Shown here: positions 2 to 15,140 of the stretch, piece after piece
Numbering within the stretch: the stretch's first letter is position 1
Layout: the number at the start of each line of letters is the position of its first letter
Assembly (NCBI RefSeq): GCF_036632915.2
Contig: NZ_CP155552.1
Coordinates: 1,550,001-1,614,000, forward strand
Direction of reading: 5' to 3'
Length of the DNA: 64,000 bases
Source: Faecalibacterium taiwanense
GTDB taxonomy: Bacteria > Bacillota > Clostridia > Oscillospirales > Ruminococcaceae
Translations under genes and position numbers: made by a program
The notes under the pieces: model-generated
What the model was told of the DNA's origin: nothing
The model's input: only the letters and a program-made list of their open reading frames with translations
Databases searched by the model: none

Positions 2-3000
2 GGCTGGACGAAGATCGGCTACACCGAGCAGTCGGTGGACAAACGCCTGAAACAGCAGACCCACACCGCCGATGTGCTGTTCCACGAGGAGTGGCGGGGC
101 AATGCCGTCTACGATGACGGCAGCGGTGAGGTGTTCACCGACCACGATTTCCACGCCTACCTCCGCAAGCTGAACGTGGAGAACGACCGCAAAAATGAGT
201 GGTTCCATCTGGATGGGGAGCAGTCCCGGCGCTATTTTCAGGATTTCCGCATGAACCGGGGCAGGGTAAAGCTGGATGCCGCCATCCCCTACACTCTGCG
301 GAAGGAGCAGGCAGAGGCCGTGGCGCAGACCAAAGCCTATTACCAGAGCCACCCCGGCGGGGAATACCTCTGGAACGCCAAGCCCCGCTTTGGCAAGACC
401 CTCTCCGTCTACGACTTCTGCAAGCAGGTGGATGCACAGACGGTACTCATCGTCACCAACCGCCCCGCCATTGCCAATAGCTGGTACAGCGACTATGTGC
501 GCTTTCTGGGCAGGGAGTCCGGCTATCTCTTCGTCAGCCATGTGGATGCCCTTGCCGGGCAGCCCCATGTGCTGGACGAGCAGGGCTATCTGGATGCCGC
601 CGCGCAGGGCGAGGAACTGTATAAGCGCATTGAGTTCGTCAGCCTGCAGGATATGAAAGGCTCGAAATATTTCGGCGGCGAGTACGACAAGCTGCGCCAC
701 CTGACCGAGCTGAACTGGGATGTGCTGGTCATCGACGAAGCCCACGAGGGCGTGGATACCTACAAGACCGACCTTGCCTTTGACCGCATCCACCGCCGCT
801 TCACGCTGCACCTGTCCGGCACGCCCTTCAAGGCGCTGGCGAACGATAAGTTTGCCGGGGATGCCATCTTCAACTGGACCTACGCCGACGAGCAGGCCGT
901 CAAGCGGAACTGGCAGGGTGAACCGGGGCAGCAGAACCCCTATGCAAACCTCCCCATGCTCAACCTCTACACCTACCAGATGTCCGAGATCATCCGGGAC
1001 GAGATCCGGCAGGGTGTAGAGATCGACGGCGAAACGCAGGAATTTGCCTTTGACCTGAACGAGTTCTTTAAGGTAAAGCCCAGCGGCAGCTTTGAGCACG
1101 AAGCCGAGGTGGACCGCTTTCTGGATGCCATGACCACCCAGAACAAATTTCCGTTTTCCACCCCGGAACTGCGTGCCGAGCTGAAACACACCTTCTGGCT
1201 GCTGAACCGGGTGGACAGCGCCAGAGCGCTGGCAAAAAAGCTGCAGGCGCACCCGGTATTCCGGGACTATGAGGTGATCCTTGCCGCCGGTGACGGCAAG
1301 CTGGACGACACGGACGAGAACCAGAAGAGCTTTGACCGGGTAAAAGCCGCCATCGCCCACCACGAAAAGACCATCACCCTGTCGGTGGGGCAGCTCACCA
1401 CCGGCGTGACCATCCCGGAATGGTCGGCGGTGCTGATGCTCTCCAACCTGAAAAGCCCGGCGCTGTATATGCAAGCGGCGTTCCGTGCCCAGAACCCCTG
1501 CCTTTTCCATGAAAACGGCACCTTCCGCCGCAAAGAGAACGCCTATGTGTTCGATTTTGACCCCGCCCGCACCCTGCTGATCTACGAGCGGTTCGCCAAC
1601 GACCTTTCACAGGACACCGCCAGCGGCAAGGGCGACACCGAGGAGCGCAAGGCGCACATCCAGAATCTGCTCAACTTCTTCCCGGTCATTGGTGAGGACG
1701 AGGAAGGGGAGATGATCCCGCTGGATGCAGAAAAAGTCCTCAGCATCCCCCGCAAGATCAAGTCCAAGGAAGTGGTGCGGATGGGCTTCCAGAGCAATTT
1801 CCTGTTCCAGAACATTTCCAACGTGTTCAGTGCCCCGCAGGAGGTGCTGGACATTCTGCAAAACTTCCAGCCCATCAGCGAAGCGAAAGCAAAGCCCATC
1901 CAGATCACCCCGGAGACCGGCGCAGACCTTTCCCTGAACGACAAGGGCGAGGTGGATTTGGACGAGGGCTACGTCATCGGCAAGGCGGCGGATGTGTTCG
2001 GGGCAAAAATTTACGAGAGCACCCCGGCGCTGGACACCGCCCTGCAAGACCTGACAGATGCTCCGGCTCCTGCCAAAGAAGAGCATCTGGAACCCCTGAA
2101 AAAGAGCATCACCAAGGAGATCATCACCCCCATGGTGGAGCAGGCAAAGCAAGAGTATGGCCGCGACCTGAAGCTGTCCGACCAGAAGCGGTTTGAGAGC
2201 ACCGCCAAAGCCAAAATGGACGTGGCGGTGAACAAGGTGGTGGACAACTACCGCATCGACCAGAGCCAGTTGGAGACCCAGCGCACCCAGCAGCTGCAAA
2301 GCTGCACCACCGCCCAGCAGCGCCAGCAGGTGAACCGGGAGTTTGACGCAAAGCAGCAGCAGAGCACCGCCGCCCTGATGGAGACCTTGCAATCCACCAT
2401 CCAGCAGGCAGCGCAGGAGATGCAGCAGACCATCGTGCGCACTGTGGAGACCAACCAGAAGGAGCAGGAGAAAAAGGGCTACGAGGACACCGTCCGTGAC
2501 CATCTCCGGGGCTTCTCCCGCACCATCCCGTCCTTCCTCATGGCGTATGGCGACGAGACCGTGACACTGGCAAACTTTGATCAGATCATCCCGGACAAGG
2601 TCTTTCAGGAGGTCACCAGCATCACGCTGGAGCAGTTCCGCTTTTTGCGGGACGGCGGACCGTACATCAACCAGACTACCGGACAGGAGGAGCACTTTGC
2701 AGGCCACCTGTTCGACCCGGTGGTGTTTGACGATTCGGTGAAGGAGTTTTTGAACCTGAAGGTCAAGCTGGCGGATTACTTTGACGAGAGCCGCACCGAG
2801 GATATCTTCGATTACATCCCGCCCCAGAAAACCAACCAGATCTTCACCCCAAAGTGGGTGGTGAAAAAGATGGTGGACTTGCTGGAGCAGGAAAACCCCG
2901 GCTGCTTCGATGACCCCGGCAAGACCTTCCTGGACCCCTACATGAAGTCCGGCCTGTACATTACGGAAATCGTCAAGCGGCTCTACCGCAGCGAGAAGAT

Positions 3001-3226
3001 GCGGCAAATCTTCCCGGACGATAACGCCCGGCTGGAACATATCTTTGCCAAGCAGGTCTATGGGCTTGCCCCGACAGAGATCATCTACCGCATTGCCATC
3101 AGCTATATTCTGGGCTTTGCAAAGGATCACGGCATCACTGCCCACCATATCCGTCAGGCGGATACGCTGGAATTTGCCAAGGCGGGCACCATGGAAAGGG
3201 AACTGGATAAGATCTTCAGAGATTGA
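2..3226 (+). CDS. GIY-YIG nuclease / SF2 helicase / methylase-like protein, 5' partial
   Basis: The frame is open to the left edge. Its first residues (GWTKIGYTEQSVDKRLKQ) resemble the start of a GIY-YIG/T5orf172-type nuclease domain. Counting from the GTG at 35, SF2 helicase motifs follow: KPRFGKT (about 116-122), IDEAHEG (about 235), LSGTPFK (about 260) and a motif VI-like AAFRAQNP. Residues about 745-815 are Gln-rich and probably coiled coil. The C-terminus has QIFTPKWVV and FLDPYMKSGLYITEI, similar to the start of an N6-adenine methylase domain, but motif I is degenerate and I see no NPPY/DPPY. Restriction-like or anti-phage defence is inferred from this architecture. Next to a mobile element and followed by a terminator. 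The true start lies outside the window. Confidence 0.75.
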   Translation, partial: GWTKIGYTEQSVDKRLKQQTHTADVLFHEEWRGNAVYDDGSGEVFTDHDFHAYLRKLNVENDRKNEWFHLDGEQSRRYFQDFRMNRGRVKLDAAIPYTLRKEQAEAVAQTKAYYQSHPGGEYLWNAKPRFGKTLSVYDFCKQVDAQTVLIVTNRPAIANSWYSDYVRFLGRESGYLFVSHVDALAGQPHVLDEQGYLDAAAQGEELYKRIEFVSLQDMKGSKYFGGEYDKLRHLTELNWDVLVIDEAHEGVDTYKTDLAFDRIHRRFTLHLSGTPFKALANDKFAGDAIFNWTYADEQAVKRNWQGEPGQQNPYANLPMLNLYTYQMSEIIRDEIRQGVEIDGETQEFAFDLNEFFKVKPSGSFEHEAEVDRFLDAMTTQNKFPFSTPELRAELKHTFWLLNRVDSARALAKKLQAHPVFRDYEVILAAGDGKLDDTDENQKSFDRVKAAIAHHEKTITLSVGQLTTGVTIPEWSAVLMLSNLKSPALYMQAAFRAQNPCLFHENGTFRRKENAYVFDFDPARTLLIYERFANDLSQDTASGKGDTEERKAHIQNLLNFFPVIGEDEEGEMIPLDAEKVLSIPRKIKSKEVVRMGFQSNFLFQNISNVFSAPQEVLDILQNFQPISEAKAKPIQITPETGADLSLNDKGEVDLDEGYVIGKAADVFGAKIYESTPALDTALQDLTDAPAPAKEEHLEPLKKSITKEIITPMVEQAKQEYGRDLKLSDQKRFESTAKAKMDVAVNKVVDNYRIDQSQLETQRTQQLQSCTTAQQRQQVNREFDAKQQQSTAALMETLQSTIQQAAQEMQQTIVRTVETNQKEQEKKGYEDTVRDHLRGFSRTIPSFLMAYGDETVTLANFDQIIPDKVFQEVTSITLEQFRFLRDGGPYINQTTGQEEHFAGHLFDPVVFDDSVKEFLNLKVKLADYFDESRTEDIFDYIPPQKTNQIFTPKWVVKKMVDLLEQENPGCFDDPGKTFLDPYMKSGLYITEIVKRLYRSEKMRQIFPDDNARLEHIFAKQVYGLAPTEIIYRIAISYILGFAKDHGITAHHIRQADTLEFAKAGTMERELDKIFRD

Positions 3227-3252
3227 AAAACAGAATACAGCATAAAACCAAG

Positions 3253-3289
3253 GGCGGCTGTCTGCATGTGTGCAGATGGCCGCCTTTTT
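3253..3289 (+). terminator. Rho-independent terminator after helicase gene
   Basis: GGCGGC and GCCGCC arms enclose an inner TCTGCA/TGCAGA helix, followed by five T. It lies 26 bases after the helicase stop codon. Confidence 0.8.
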
Positions 3290-3431
3290 GTGCTATGCCT
3301 GTTACAAAAATGAAAGCTGTTGGATACATCATATCGAACAGGACGAGCGGTCTCATTCTCTCTCTTTTACCAAAGTTTCCCTTGTGTTTTCTTGCAAGCT
3401 GACAAAAGTGGCGTGTTTTCAAAACTTTTTG

Positions 3432-3460
3432 TTGACACAACTCGATTTTTGTGGTAATCT
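3432..3460 (+). promoter_or_regulatory. Strong sigma-70-type promoter at left end of mobile element
   Basis: TTGACA (3432-3437) and TAATCT (3455-3460) are separated by exactly 17 bases. No coding gene follows for about 750 bases, so the transcript would begin with a structured leader and run into the palindrome array. Confidence 0.6.
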
Positions 3461-3757
3461 ATCCCAACAATTTAATATAACATATTTACTTAGAGTTTCA
3501 GCTCGGCTCCCGAAGGAGCCGGAGCAAGTTTTTAACTTTCTATCGCTACATAACGAACCCGAACCAAGGCCATCCCGGAAGGGATGGTCAGATTCAGGTT
3601 GTTGTGTGGCGATTTTTTATTGCCAAATCCAGCACCGCACCTTGAAAACCGCATGACCGTCTGCATGGGATACCCGGCGATGACCCCGCAAGGGAGAGCC
3701 GGAAAACGCCGCCGGAAGGGGGCAGGAAAGCCATGCAGGGAGAACGGCACACCCAAT
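3461..3757 (+). other. Non-coding leader with two short hairpins
   Basis: No convincing gene is visible. Two compact hairpins with GAA-type loops are present: GGCTCC-CGAA-GGAGCC within 3501-3525 and CCATCCC-GGAA-GGGATGG at 3570-3587. A T-rich stretch after the second (about 3609-3618) has no clear stem directly before it. The segment may be the 5' part of a transcript from the promoter at 3432. Confidence 0.4.
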
Positions 3758-4183
3758 ATCAACTGGTCAAAATGGCCAGTTGATGTGGTGAATGACACAA
3801 AGCGTCATTCACCAGAAAAACTTTCTGCGTTACGGCTGACCCCATGTGGACATTTTGACCACATGGGTGAATTGCCGCAGCTTGAATCAATGTAGACAAT
3901 TTGTCCACATTGACTCCGTTCGTGTTACGTTTGACCTCGACTTGACATTTTGTCAAGCCACGGTGAAAAGTGGTGGGTTACGAAAACCGTAACTCACCAC
4001 TTGGAAGTGGTAAATGGACAAAATGTCCACTTACCACCCAGCCATAACGCACAGATTTTGGTTGGTGGTCATTTTGACCATCAACCAAACAATTGCAACA
4101 CTTTATTGTACAAAAGTGGCTGTTACCATTTTGATAACAGCCACGCTTCCGTAACACTTTTGGCAAATAATGCTTTTCATTAT
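3758..4183. repeat. Palindrome array, left block (about 10 units)
   Basis: Imperfect palindromes lie at 3758-3784, 3787-3813, 3841-3867, 3887-3913, 3941-3957, 3968-4002, 4007-4037, 4057-4089, 4116-4144 and 4167-4183. Arm sequences differ between units, but each left arm is complementary to its own right arm. Most units have a central heptamer, CAAAATG or its complement CATTTTG, often flanked by one mismatched pair. Spacers repeatedly carry GTTACG or its complement CGTAAC. No gene is seen here. Function is unknown; a DNA-structure or protein-binding role in the mobile element is inferred. Confidence 0.85.
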
Positions 4184-4219
4184 CCACCACACACCCGTAA
4201 CAGCCAAAGGAGGATGCCT

Positions 4220-4555
4220 ATGACAACAGAACAATGGGAACGCGAAAATCAGGACACCCTGATGGAATATTTCATTGATGGCGCCCCCAGTGTGCGCAGA
4301 ATCCAATGTGAATACTGCCGCAAGGCTATCTACACCCAGACCCGAAACCGCAAATATTGCAGCTTTCAGACCTGCGGTCACAAGATGTTGAATCTGCGGA
4401 AAAGCCTTAAAAAGCGTGCCGAACGTGGAACGTATACCTGCGCTTGCTGCGGGGAGCAGTTCTTACCGATCCGGGCAGATGCCAGATATTGCAGCAATGC
4501 CTGCCGGCAGAAAGGCTACCGCCAGCGCAAAGCGAATGCTGCTTCTATCCGGTAA
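4220..4555 (+). CDS. Small two-zinc-finger protein of mobile element
   Basis: A 111-residue protein with two Cys clusters: CEYCRK with KYCSFQTCGHK (about residues 31-55), and CACCGEQF with RYCSNACRQKGYRQRK (about 74-105). Each looks like a CxxC...CxxxC zinc ribbon, and the basic YRQRK tail suits nucleic-acid binding. The start is set by AAAGGAGG eight bases upstream of the ATG; the open frame continues upstream through palindromes without a ribosome site. The gene lies inside the palindrome array, and its stop codon is within the palindrome at 4552-4590. It may bind the array, which is inference. I do not recognise a named family. Confidence 0.7.
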   Translation: MTTEQWERENQDTLMEYFIDGAPSVRRIQCEYCRKAIYTQTRNRKYCSFQTCGHKMLNLRKSLKKRAERGTYTCACCGEQFLPIRADARYCSNACRQKGYRQRKANAASIR

Positions 4556-4883
4556 AGTGGTGCTTCCCATTTTGGAAAGTACCACTTTACCGTAACGACT
4601 AATCGCTCGCTCCCAAATCCCCACAGTGGGAATTTGGGCGATTATCTGAAATCAAGTTCCGCTTTCCGTAACTTGATTTTAGCCGTAACGAAGCCACCGG
4701 AGTTATCATTTTGAGAACTTCGGTTTTATCTGTAACACGTCACCCCCACTCCGTAAAAATCAGGTGATCAAAATGAGCACTTGATTCTACCTGTAACGCC
4801 TCAAGGTCGTTGAAAATCAGGTTGCCAAGATGACAACCTGATTCTGACCGTAACAGAATCAGTGGGTCAAAATGGCCCACTGA
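4552..4883. repeat. Palindrome array, right block (about 7 units)
   Basis: Units lie at 4552-4590, 4601-4642, 4649-4679, 4696-4724, 4758-4786, 4815-4843 and 4859-4883. Three of them are exactly 29 bp. They follow the same design as the left block: unique complementary arms and, in most, a CATTTTG/CAAAATG centre (CAAGATG at 4815-4843). CCGTAAC or CTGTAAC lies between most units. The first unit overlaps the stop codon of the zinc-ribbon gene. Confidence 0.85.
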
Positions 4884-5046
4884 AAAAGCCGGACGAGCTG
4901 TTTTTCTGGACAGCTTGCCCGGAGCAAGAGTGCAGAGGTGCGGGTCGCCAGTGGCGACCTCAAAAGGCCGCAGGCATTTTGAAGCACCGACCGAGCCGAC
5001 AGGCGAGACCGCAGCCCTTTGAAGGGAGTCAAGGGGGAACGCCTTG

Positions 5047-5083
5047 CCCAGTGATATGATGCTGTGCGTCATATCCTACTGGG
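5047..5083 (+). other. Candidate origin of transfer (oriT)
   Basis: CCCAGT-GATATGA (5047-5059) and TCATATC-CT-ACTGGG (5069-5083) form a 13-bp inverted repeat with a 9-base loop and a 2-base bulge. It sits about 90 bases upstream of the relaxase. A large inverted repeat just ahead of the relaxase gene is the usual arrangement for mobilizable elements; the nick site cannot be read. I see nothing else definite in 4884-5170. Confidence 0.45.
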
Positions 5084-5170
5084 TATTATCTGGCGCAAAA
5101 CGGCGGCAGATCCAGCAGCTCCGCTGCTGCGTTCTCCCACGCCAAGAAGTCGAAACGGAGGGATGTCTAT

Positions 5171-6399
5171 CTGAAATTAACACGACACAACGGACGAGCT
5201 GGGACCCATGGCACCTATAACCCCAAACACAATGACCGGAGTTTCAACCTTGCCAACAGCGAGCACATCGACCCGGAACGAGCCAAGGGCAACATCTACT
5301 GGGACTGCTTCCACGGTTTCCGTTCGGCTCTCGATCCGCAAGACCCGGATGATCTGGCTGCGACCTTCTCGGAGGTAGAGCAGCAATTCTACGAGAACCG
5401 CTATTCCAACTTTGTGGAAAGCCAGAACGAGCGCAACGCCAAGATCCGGCACACAGAGCGCAACCGCTCCATTCCCGACCTACTGTCCAGCCGCAAGACC
5501 TGCCCGGAGGAGACCATCTACCAACTTGGAACGCTGGATGAACACGCTTCGGCAGAGGACTTGCTGAGCGTCGTCACAGAGTTCATCGAGGAGTTCAAGG
5601 CCAAGTATGGCGACCACGTTCATGTGCTGGACTGGGCACTGCATCTGGACGAAAGCACACCCCACATCCATGAGCGTCATGTGTTCGACTGCGAGAACAA
5701 GTACGGCGAGGTGGCACCCCAGCAGGAAAAGGCGTTGGAAGCGTTGGGCTTCGAGCTGCCCGACCCGGCCAAACCCTCAGCCGCCGCAACAACCGCAAGA
5801 TCACCTTTGATGCAGCCTGCCGGAAGATGCTGTTTGAGATCGCCAAGCGGCATGGTCTGGAATTGGAGGAAGATGCGGAGTACGGCAACCGCAAATATCT
5901 GGAAAAGCAGGATTTCATTCTTGCCAAGCAGAAGGAGCAGCTTGCCGCCCAGCAGAGCAAGCTGGACGAACTGACCCTCAAGGTCAACGACATGGAAACG
6001 CTGATCGATGAAGTTTCGGCAGCGGCCTACGACAAGGCGGTGGAGGTCGTGACGGACATGGTACGCACCGAGACCCGCAAGGAAGATATGCGGATGATCG
6101 AGGACACGAGGAAGTGGGTGCTGTCCCCGGAACGCAAGGCTCCGCAGGCCACGAGAGAGTACGCCGCCCATCGGTTGGATACCGTGTTGGACAAGTTCCT
6201 CAAGACCATGCAGACCACCGCCGCCCGTTTGCAGAACAAGCTGCTGAAGCCGGAAGTCCGGCAGAAGTGCAAGGAGCAGGTCAAGGAGAAAGCACGGGAT
6301 TCCGTTCTGCAACTGCTGAACCGCTTGCAGGCAGAACAGGCGCAGCGGAATCCATCTGCACCGCCTACCGCCGAAAAATCAGAAAATCGTTTTCAATAA
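5171..6399 (+). pseudogene. Pre/Mob-type relaxase, frameshifted
   Basis: Nicks oriT and leads the strand in mobilization. The N-terminus (KLTRHNGRAGTHGTYN) and the metal-binding HLDESTPHIHERHVF motif are typical of plasmid-recombination/Mob relaxases; the C-terminal half is coiled coil. Near 5777 one base is missing (CCCTCAGCC where the protein needs a tyrosine codon), so the rest continues in the next frame from about 5827 to 6399. Joined length is about 409 aa. A good ribosome site (GGAGGGA, 5157-5163) is followed by CTG at 5171, exactly where ATG would be expected; the next in-frame conventional start, GTG 5414, would lose the N-terminus. Either CTG is used or the start is lost. Confidence 0.75.
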
Positions 6400-6418
6400 T
6401 AGTACGAGGTGATGTTTA

Positions 6419-7767
6419 TTGAGCAAGGAAGTCAACGAAGAACGTACTCCCAGAACCGTTGCGGACGTAAAAGAAATGCTGACCAAGCACTCCAACGGCG
6501 AGATCCAGCGAACGATTCAAAATTGCATCACGATTTTGCAGAACGACCATGTGCTGGCCGATGCCATCCGGCTGAACCTGTTGAGTGAGCGCATCGACAT
6601 CGTAAAGCCTGTGGGCTGGCCCCGCTCCGGCAAGACGCTGAACGACACCGACATGAAGTATATCCTGCGGAGGATGGAGAAATACGGCATTTCCAGCGAA
6701 AAGAAAATCGAATCTGCCATCCGCATTGTTGCCAATGAGAACCGCTATCATCCCATCCGGGATTACCTGAACGGCCTGCAATGGGACGGCACGGAACGGA
6801 TAGCCCACGTCCTGCACCATTTTCTCGGTGCTGCGGAGGACGAGTACACTTGCGAAGCTATGAAAATTTTCCTGCTGGGAGCCATCAAGCGCGTGTTCCA
6901 GCCGGGATGCAAATTTGAAACCATGCTCTGTCTGGTGGGCGGGCAAGGTGCGGGGAAGTCCAGCTTTTTCCGACTGCTGGCGGTCAAGGACGAATGGTTC
7001 TCGGACGACCTGCGGCGGTTGGACGATGACAACGTATATCGCAAGCTGCAGGGGCACTGGATCATTGAAATGTCGGAGATGATCGCCACCGCCAATGCCA
7101 AGAGCATCGAGGAGATCAAGAGTTTTCTCAGTAAACAGAAGGAGACCTATAAAGTCCCCTACGAAACACATCCTGCCGACCGTCTGCGCCAGTGCGTCTT
7201 TGCTGGCACGACCAATCGGCAGGATTTTTGCCCCGTGACCGCACGGGTAATCGCCGCTTCATCCCCGTTCCGGTGGATGCGGAACTGGCTGAGATCCACA
7301 TTTTGGACAACGAGGAGGAATCCCGTGCCTATATCGACCAGCTTTGGGCAGAAGCCATGACCATCTACAACAGCGGCAACTACAAGCTGGCGTTCAGCCC
7401 CGCCATGCAGGAAACTCTGCTAGCCCATCAGCAGGACTTCATGCAGGAGGATGCGCAAGCTGGCATGATTTACGCCTTTCTGGAGGACTACACGGGTGAC
7501 CGGGTGTGTTCCAAGCAGCTCTATGCGGAGGCGCTGGGCAACACCAACATCCCGGCAGAGTGGGAGACCCGCACTATCTGCGAGATCATGAACACGGGAA
7601 TTTCGCGCGGCGATATCCAAGGCTGGCAGGCGCACAAGACCGCCAAGCGTTACCCGAAGTACGGTGTTCAGAAAGGCTGGGAGCGCGTAACCAGCCCCGA
7701 AACCGGGGCTGAAAATTTCTTCGAAATAACGGATGCGGAAGCCAAGCAGCTGGGCTTTCCCTTCTGA
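6419..7767 (+). pseudogene. VapE-like (virulence-associated E) P-loop protein, frameshifted
   Basis: Resembles the VirE/VapE family found on phages, plasmids and integrative elements, often taken to help element replication. A Walker A motif GGQGAGKSS lies near residue 175, a Walker B-like IIEMSEM near 215, and a TTNRQDF...RTGNRRFIPV segment typical of the family follows. The frame breaks in a T run at about 7225-7229 (five T where six restore the frame). Joined length is about 449 aa. It starts at TTG 6419 behind AGGTGA, 19 bases after the relaxase. Confidence 0.75.
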
Positions 7768-7979
7768 CGGACACCGGTTACACGTCTGGTTACAGATTCG
7801 GTTACGTTCCAGTTACAGCGCAAAAGCCGCATGGCTGCTGCATTTTCCTCTTTCTGTAACCATGTAACCTTAAAAAGATAAGAAAAAGTATAAAACCTAC
7901 CGGATGCCCTGTGTGCAGAAAAAGAGAATTTTCCTGCCCGGTTACAGGCGTTCGGTTACAAAGAATTGGAGGTCTGCCT
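7768..7979. repeat. GTTAC iteron cluster between vapE-like gene and xis
   Basis: GTTAC occurs at 7777, 7789, 7801 and 7812, spaced 12, 12 and 11 bases apart, then inverted (GTAAC) at 7856 and 7864, and again direct at 7941 and 7955. Near helical-turn spacing suggests binding sites for an element-encoded protein. The same core appears in the spacers of the palindrome array. No gene is seen. Confidence 0.55.
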
Positions 7980-14770: not shown

Positions 14771-14974
14771 TTGTTTATCTATCAGCTTGGAACGCTGGAT
14801 GAACACGCTTCCGCAGAGGACTTGCTCAATCTCGTCACAGAGTTCATTGAGGAGTTCAAGGCTAAATTCGGCGAACACGTTCATGTGCTGGATAGGGCAC
14901 TGCATCTGGACGAAAGCACGCCCCACATCCATGAGTGCCATGTATTCGACTGCGAGAACAAGTATGGTGAGGTG
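14771..14974 (+). pseudogene. Relaxase fragment (relic of a second mobilizable element)
   Basis: About 68 codons match the relaxase gene at 5514-5716, beginning at YQLGTLDEHASAEDL and including LHLDESTPHIHECHVF. By eye the DNA is around 85-90% identical, so it comes from a related but different element. The fragment ends at GAGGTG and joins the 165-bp end repeat directly, as if an internal deletion fused relaxase and right end. It has no start or stop of its own. Confidence 0.85.
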
Positions 14975-15140
14975 ACCCGGTAAGTGGCGTAGATTTGCGT
15001 AGAAAAGCGTGGATCGTGCAAAAACGGAGAATCTGGAAAAAATCGGCTTGTGGCCTTGATAATTCTACAAAAGTCTACGTTTCCCGATATTCGTGATTCG
15101 GCTCCAAAAGTGTGGTTTGGAAGGGCGGCATGTCCTAAGC
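14975..15140 (+). repeat. 165-bp element-end direct repeat, copy B
   Basis: Near-identical to 9622-9786: one extra A in the GGAAAAAATC run and A to C shortly before CTAAGC. It marks the end of the relic element, and chromosomal-looking sequence follows. Far more similar between copies than the relaxase fragments are. Confidence 0.85.

Follow-up and report, generated by a model that had tools for sequence, protein, structure and literature searches.

What kind of site is a DNA palindrome whose arms differ from one copy to the next and still pair with each other, and what would read it? The question is raised by an array of such palindromes around a small zinc-ribbon gene within the window, the 64,000-nucleotide stretch analysed here, which is part of the single-contig genome G000 (G000:C1:1550001-1614000). 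An earlier note, made from the letters of the window, had described the palindromes as units of unrelated arms sharing one central heptamer, had taken them to be recognised as DNA with their secondary structure under selection, and knew of no described system with this design. In the open-access library searched we likewise found no paper that names the unit or describes such a system.

The array and the element that carries it

The first 9.6 kb of the window read, from their gene content, as an integrative mobilizable element with the following features:

35-3226: ResIII-domain gene
3639-3748: leader that precedes the array, conserved and probably structured, GACCGTCTGCATGG...GGGAGAACGGC
3758-4144: array A, upstream of the zinc-ribbon gene
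4220..4555, + strand: gene for the 111-aa zinc-ribbon protein, which has two Cys-rich modules and matches no Pfam or NCBIfam family above the curated cut-off
4550-4883: array B, between the zinc-ribbon gene and the relaxase gene
5053..5075, no strand assigned: imperfect palindrome GATATGATGCTGTGCGTCATATC, the probable oriT inverted repeat, immediately upstream of the relaxase
5169..6399, + strand: relaxase gene, interrupted in the window copy, with Mob_Pre similarity below the cut-off
6419..7767, + strand: VapE-like helicase gene, split into two ORFs in the window copy
7777..7959, no strand assigned: GTTAC-rich iteron-like stretch with an 11-12 bp period, after VapE
after the GTTAC-rich stretch: Tn916-type excisionase and integrase

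Both the relaxase and the VapE reading frames are broken in this copy (5169-7767), and a second relaxase fragment, with 88% identity to the relaxase query over 68 residues, lies about 9 kb downstream of the first at 14771-14983. The Rfam search of the leader gave nothing above cut-off; Campylobacter plasmids carry a short match to it, ahead of Cys_rich_VLP, RepA_N and MobV genes. The stretch after VapE combines four GTTAC repeats of this 11-12 bp period with two inverted copies, AT-rich DNA and two further copies. It resembles a satellite-type origin and is retained in locus L343.

With a mismatch-tolerant scorer, 16 palindromes of score 6 or more were counted between 3751 and 4890, against a mean of 1.09 and a maximum of 4 in 200 dinucleotide shuffles; at a score of 8 or more the count was 11 against 0.05 (maximum 1 in the 200 shuffles). 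The excess over chance stood up to the shuffled control that the earlier note had set, the number being 16 and not about 17. The two blocks flanking the zinc-ribbon gene, the two orientations of the core and the recurrence of GTTACG/CGTAAC were all seen again. The palindromes, none of them assigned to a strand, are:

3758..3784, centre 3771: unit 1, core CAAAATG
3786..3814, centre 3800: palindrome 2, variant core ACAAAGC
3841..3867, centre 3854: unit 3, core CATTTTG, GTTAC box at −21 (3829-3833)
3884..3916, centre 3900: unit 4, core CAATTTG
3941..3957, centre 3949: unit 5, core CATTTTG, GTTAC box at −21 (3924-3928)
3968..4002, centre 3985: palindrome 6, variant core, stem including GTTACG-AAAA-CCGTAAC
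4007..4037, centre 4022: unit 7, core CAAAATG
4057..4089, centre 4073: unit 8, core CATTTTG
4116..4144, centre 4130: unit 9, core CATTTTG, GTAAC box at +21
4550..4592, centre 4571: unit 10, core CATTTTG, GTAAC box at +21, overlapping the zinc-ribbon stop codon
4612..4638, centre 4625: palindrome 11, variant core CACAGTG
4649..4679, centre 4664: palindrome 12, variant core GCTTTCC, GTAAC box at +21
4696..4724, centre 4710: unit 13, core CATTTTG, GTAAC box at +22
4758..4786, centre 4772: unit 14, core CAAAATG, GTAAC box at +21
4815..4843, centre 4829: unit 15, core CAAGATG, GTAAC box at +21
4859..4883, centre 4871: unit 16, core CAAAATG

All ten CAAAATG or CATTTTG motifs of the array are palindrome centres with 8-10 of the 11 mirror pairs lying 4-14 bp from the centre, in agreement with the at least ten units so centred that had been reported, whereas for the 14 such motifs in the rest of the window the mean is 3.07 of 11 (maximum 8). 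A single core palindrome near position 2214, in the ResIII coding sequence, reaches 8 or more of 11 mirror pairs and is probably due to chance.

Centre, arms and covariation

The centre is better described as CA-WWW-TG, its A/T triplet being mostly free. A-rich and T-rich centres coexist in 9 of the 35 site clusters that hold more than one unit. The oriT-proximal site (unit 16) is represented by 14 units from different elements, with 10 distinct arm sequences and with CAAAATG, CAATTTG and CATTTTG all occurring as centres. Among array palindromes picked by symmetry, 76 of 112 carry one of five CA-NNN-TG cores, the 112 being what was left of 157 after 45 coding, oriT or other palindromes had been excluded by hand.

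The arms turned out not to be unrelated between units. Their inner parts share a consensus of about AAGTGGTCA-NNN-TGACCACTT. When 54 distinct units are oriented by their core the consensus is about AAGTGGTCAAAATGACCACTT, in which T occupies −7 and A occupies +7 in 47 units each; position −8 is G in 34 units and +8 is C in 39. Positions more than about 9 bp from the centre are the most variable, and there the outer arms differ but remain paired.

This pairing was found in regions chosen without regard to it. Of the 83 motifs in 13 homologous or related array regions, which were picked by core motif and nothing else, 80 show 6 or more of 11 mirror pairs; the other three show no such pair and all lie past the last unit of their own array. 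For the covariation analysis, 89 motif occurrences were reduced to 34 at an 85% identity cut and, after removal of two non-palindromic hits in the zinc-ribbon coding sequence, to 32 representative units. Pairing was present in 87.7% of the cells, compared with 61.2% after shuffling and 25-38% after sliding, and the covariation score of 0.650 (0.170 shuffled) was reached in none of 500 shuffles. Mirror mutual information is high out to about 13 bp from the centre, except at the nearly fixed position 7. Changes on both sides occurred in 12 of 14 pairs against 10.3 in shuffles, a value that 30 of the 500 shuffles reached. The arms are self-complementary despite their divergence, as had been claimed. 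Across 54 site clusters from 24 loci, in units admitted only with 7 or more of 11 mirror pairs, a choice that biases towards paired states, 35 positions had changed on both sides (27 of them from pair to pair) against 6.5 expected; these are the compensatory changes in homologous arrays for which the earlier note had proposed to look. The survey of 83 motifs, the count of ten out of ten in the window and the pairing of the two-box units described below are free of that preselection.

Probably DNA rather than RNA

Read on the strand towards the relaxase, the independent mismatch states of the same preselected units comprise 28 G-T, 31 A-C and 38 others (G-T versus A-C, p=0.79), and their cores are A-rich in 80 units and T-rich in 66. 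Two-box units of other loci gave 22 G-T versus 32 A-C mismatches. Since a G-T excess is expected if selection acts on RNA or on a single transferred strand, its lack favours sites that act as DNA rather than RNA. This comparison sustains the earlier proposal of DNA recognition, together with the two orientations of the loop, and does not favour the role on a single transferred strand that had been suggested beside it. When folded as DNA, 8 of the 16 window palindromes scored z −2.2 to −6.8 against shuffles; for seven of them none of 200 shuffles folded equally well, and the remaining one was matched by 7. Such predicted folding makes a hairpin role possible. The T-run of intrinsic terminators was found in just 28 of 153 units, as TTTT directly after the stem, and the seven Rfam matches within 3200-5300, the best at 26.8 bits, were all under their gathering cut-offs.

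The pairing of the outer arms goes beyond what a duplex-binding dimer alone explains, which weighs against the model preferred below. The earlier note's view that secondary structure is selected does not stand as it was put. The conserved inner arms leave sequence recognition possible, and part of the symmetry could come from template switching, which is considered below.

A box at a fixed distance from the centre

The GTTACG/CGTAAC motif of the spacers does recur, and its placement is not random. To the right of the centre it is GTAAC, at 19-22 bp, and to the left GTTAC, at 19-21 bp; none stands at 5-18 bp, and the mean distance is 20.58 ± 1.15 bp (65 instances, searched at 14-30 bp). Measured from the palindrome end the standard deviation rises from 1.15 to 4.69, so the spacing is fixed by the centre; in units whose palindrome ends before the box, palindrome length and box distance are almost uncorrelated (r −0.14). 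The distance may correspond to two helical turns of duplex or, alternatively, to a hairpin of fixed length.

Boxed units are frequent in elements with the zinc-ribbon gene (51 of 84) compared with elements that lack it (9 of 69). That GTTAC serves only as an iteron for the VapE initiator is doubtful, since boxes are also present in elements whose rep gene is P4-type and in which VapE gave no match. Downstream of VapE, GTTAC repeats occur in L343 as well as in the window; in the L284 stretch, which overlaps L343, no zinc-ribbon gene is seen. Kinship of the 7777-7959 repeats with the array boxes is unproven. The pattern GTTACN{8,30}CAAAATGN{8,30}GTAAC occurs in at least 120 stretches of viral contigs, with one match in each of the 80 listed, and these matches are regarded as mostly due to chance.

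The zinc-ribbon gene and the sites beside it

In PHROG the zinc-ribbon protein is weakly similar to HNH endonucleases (at best 5e-8, with the window protein) and to the NinG/Rap junction endonuclease (1e-3 to 8e-3), and no HUH or HNH motif was seen in it by eye. The search for a relative of solved structure was negative (best E 0.34). There are 170 relatives at E≤1e-10, and among the 120 listed a single one is named, as hypothetical. The predicted structure is poor (pLDDT 72.4, pTM 0.40) and contains a long C-terminal helix. Sampling the family, order and class gave full-length relatives in six families, including that of the window, with identities down to about 36%. Their neighbours include serine recombinase, NikA/MobC-like and ParB-like genes and, by eye, one ParM-like gene.

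These relatives are accompanied by a fuller form of the site, a two-box unit of 47-51 bp in which the palindrome is enclosed by GTTAC and GTAAC, approximately GTTACRGNTA ... AAGTGGTCA-NNN-TGACCACTT ... TANCYGTAAC. Two-box units or core palindromes lie within 1.5 kb of 22 of 23 zinc-ribbon genes, the one gene with no unit of either kind being the second member in L339; the 23 genes are partly related (L040 with L041; L317, L338 and L342), so that not all cases are independent. Two-box units as such lie within 1.5 kb of 17 of the 23 and are missing at that distance from six, the gene of the window included; in L340 a unit is present but outside the two-box search expression. At 16 of the 23 genes a two-box unit falls within the last 150 nt of the gene, and the first unit is often inside the 3′ end of the coding sequence or overlaps it. 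In other genera the units are mostly confined to the gene end or the sequence after it. None was found in 36 control relaxase loci (140,890 bp). In 18 distinct two-box units chosen by their boxes alone, from nine loci (eight of other genera and L040 of Faecalibacterium), inner pairing is 0.62 against 0.25 after shuffling, the highest of 500 shuffles being 0.33. On this distribution the two-box unit looks as if it travels with the zinc-ribbon gene. What is new here is the box fixed at about 20.6 bp from the centre and the two-box palindrome that most of the scanned zinc-ribbon genes, in several families of the class, have in their 3′ end; a gene with its own DNA sites points to an undescribed partnership.

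Distribution beside relaxase and rep genes

Searched with a covariance model of the unit, 21 of 31 Faecalibacterium genomes were positive; in the family sample 30 of 297 genomes were, of which 22 gave just one match. The related loci L001 and L033 have 17 array palindromes each; L344 and L345 were scanned for palindrome counts only. The proximity to a relaxase proposed from the window holds generally, 23 of the 24 array loci compared having at least a partial or distant relaxase match, with L037 (a fragment) and L039 (24% identity) as the weak cases and L038 as the locus without one. Upstream of MobV relaxases in L242-L246 there are arrays of 6-10 core palindromes, mostly free of boxes, and in L237-L241, L250 and L253 one to four core palindromes surround P4-type rep genes. 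Within box-poor arrays a second repeated dyad, GCTATGTACGTATGTAC...GTACGCACGTACATAGC, was observed (L242, 6365-6640 and 6900-6980; L244; L042).

In other genera the relatives of these relaxases come without arrays. By the same measure, L242-L245 have 10-14 palindromes upstream of the relaxase against 0-3 in 28 MobV loci of other genera; none of the 28 has an array (in 25 the upstream stretch was 1,500 nt long), and a single core palindrome occurs in seven. No array was seen either at seven relaxases of other genera related to that of the window, one of which has a single similar palindrome, or at the Faecalibacterium relaxase loci L279 and L284, and core units are absent from all nine of these loci. 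A lone unit-like palindrome with centre CAAACTG lies in L276, from another genus, at 1670-1702 (reverse complement), more than 2 kb from its relaxase. The isolated core palindromes of L254 and L255, also from other genera, were set aside as terminator-like because of their T-runs.

Six Faecalibacterium genomes (G001, G004, G007, G012, G016 and G017) have clusters of 3-10 core palindromes, and the zinc-ribbon search in them gave no match better than 1.8e-8 (47 residues). L346 (G029:C1:2645500-2652000) has four core palindromes in 6.5 kb, likewise in a genome without a good zinc-ribbon match. The core would thus need no zinc-ribbon protein in the same genome, and because of the six genomes we rejected that protein as the sole reader of the core. 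Pairs of units about 1.65 kb apart were also considered as insertion-sequence ends and rejected, since a rep gene lies between them in the five pairs inspected; that of L238 belongs to the P4 primase family.

Known systems and rival explanations

Integron attC sites have paired outer boxes with GTT and AAC (RYYYAAC on the 5′ side, GTTRRRY on the 3′ side) around a variable self-complementary interior, and they form arrays. The present units are like them in these three respects and unlike them in box polarity, which is reversed, GTTAC coming first and GTAAC last; the window integrase, moreover, scores 57.5 bits where the TIGR02249 cut-off is 265. Like iterons of plasmid or satellite origins, the GTTAC repeats that follow VapE recur every 11-12 bp next to AT-rich DNA, but this organisation is found in 7777-7959 only, and the array units are palindromes rather than direct repeats. 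CsrB-type RNA sponges, too, combine numerous variable-stem hairpins with a single loop motif, and the palindromes could be hairpins of a transcript, either a protein-binding sponge or an mRNA control element with a conserved loop, the more so as they stand in intergenic stretches that are probably transcribed. We consider this very improbable: G-T mismatches do not exceed A-C in either set, AAA and TTT loops swap at the same site so that the centre occurs in both orientations, and Rfam gave nothing above a gathering score. Spread by an enzyme, as miniature mobile palindromes of the REP/RAYT or IS200/IS605 kind, is most improbable of all. REP and BIME sequences are imperfect palindromes with a short flanking box, associated with a RAYT gene and clustered in alternating orientations (PMC2817692), and here too a gene adjoins its own boxed, imperfect and clustered palindromes, which are amplified in one genus. 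The gene, however, encodes a zinc ribbon and not a Y1 transposase (PF01797 has no match in G000, while 5 of 14 control genomes are positive), and inspection by eye revealed no HUH or HNH motif in its product; the arms are not copies of one sequence (34 of 89 occurrences are distinct at 85% identity) but vary and covary; and the arrays are found in mobile elements. A REP/RAYT gene is flanked by two inverted palindromes; 22 of 23 zinc-ribbon genes have units within 1.5 kb, but in most loci of other genera the two-box units stand only at the gene end or past it. Unlike IS200/IS605 ends, the five inspected intervals of about 1.6 kb enclose a rep gene and no transposase.

Closer to the genetic context is the possibility that the palindromes work as single-strand hairpins, that is, as primase, primosome or single-stranded DNA promoter sites for complementary-strand synthesis during transfer or rolling-circle replication, comparable to ssi or Frpo. 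In the leading region of the F plasmid, formation of the Frpo hairpin initiates primer RNA, as described in PMC10085688. The arrays resemble such sites in being hairpin-forming DNA close to a transfer region, directly upstream of a relaxase and beside P4-family primase-helicase genes, and in the eight palindromes whose folding as DNA beats shuffles. The transferred strand, however, is a single one and no strand preference appears in mismatches or core orientation; 16 copies are many for such sites, and the relaxase relatives of other genera are free of arrays. We therefore regard this explanation as quite unlikely. Unlikely too, if a little easier to conceive, is that the units are ordinary palindromic duplex sites or their remnants, whose symmetry and core flips are by-products of template switching and not selected. 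Template switching homogenizes the arms of inverted repeats and inverts their spacer (PMC8604942), so that covariation alone is no proof of selection for structure, and both signatures are present in the excess of paired changes and in the clusters with both orientations. It leaves unexplained why so many palindromes persist, why CA-NNN-TG cores are so common among them and why a unit is kept in the 3′ end of the gene across families.

A model for the zinc-ribbon sites

The reading that we tentatively prefer, as possible and still short of probable, is that the array consists of DNA-level palindromic sites of a zinc-ribbon-linked module, carried by integrative mobilizable elements, at a replication and mobilization region, where they would be bound by protein. 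In this model the ancestral form would have been one to three two-box palindromes, the first usually within or abutting the 3′ end of the zinc-ribbon gene. In Faecalibacterium the unit would have been multiplied to 16-17 copies in arrays flanking the gene, and mostly box-free units multiplied around the rep and relaxase genes of other elements. The zinc-ribbon protein would most plausibly read the box, GTTAC, which lies two helical turns away from the centre, and a second factor, perhaps of the host, would read the CA-WWW-TG centre and the inner arms, either as duplex or as an extruded cruciform. The nucleoprotein array so formed at the replication and mobilization region might tune expression or processing of the adjacent rep and mob genes. 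Binder, DNA form and effect are all inferred here, and the simplest reading would be a protein at the box, with another factor or the DNA structure itself acting at the centre.

An alternative, which we find rather doubtful, is that the zinc-ribbon protein recognises the whole two-box palindrome (GTTAC, two turns, centre) as a DNA structure. The founding site would lie in the 3′ end of its own gene, the sites would multiply beside rep and relaxase genes, and the arms would be kept complementary during drift by selection for a hairpin or cruciform.

Covariation is a classic sign of RNA structure, and here it is seen in DNA sites without strand bias. If structure is what is selected, the arrays would offer a natural test, tractable by sequence, of cruciform or hairpin DNA as a bacterial signal. 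In Faecalibacterium, for which PMC6295017 reports classical transposons to be lacking, integrative elements are abundant. A small gene and its site, present in several families and often near mobilization genes, may expose an unrecognised control layer of such elements.
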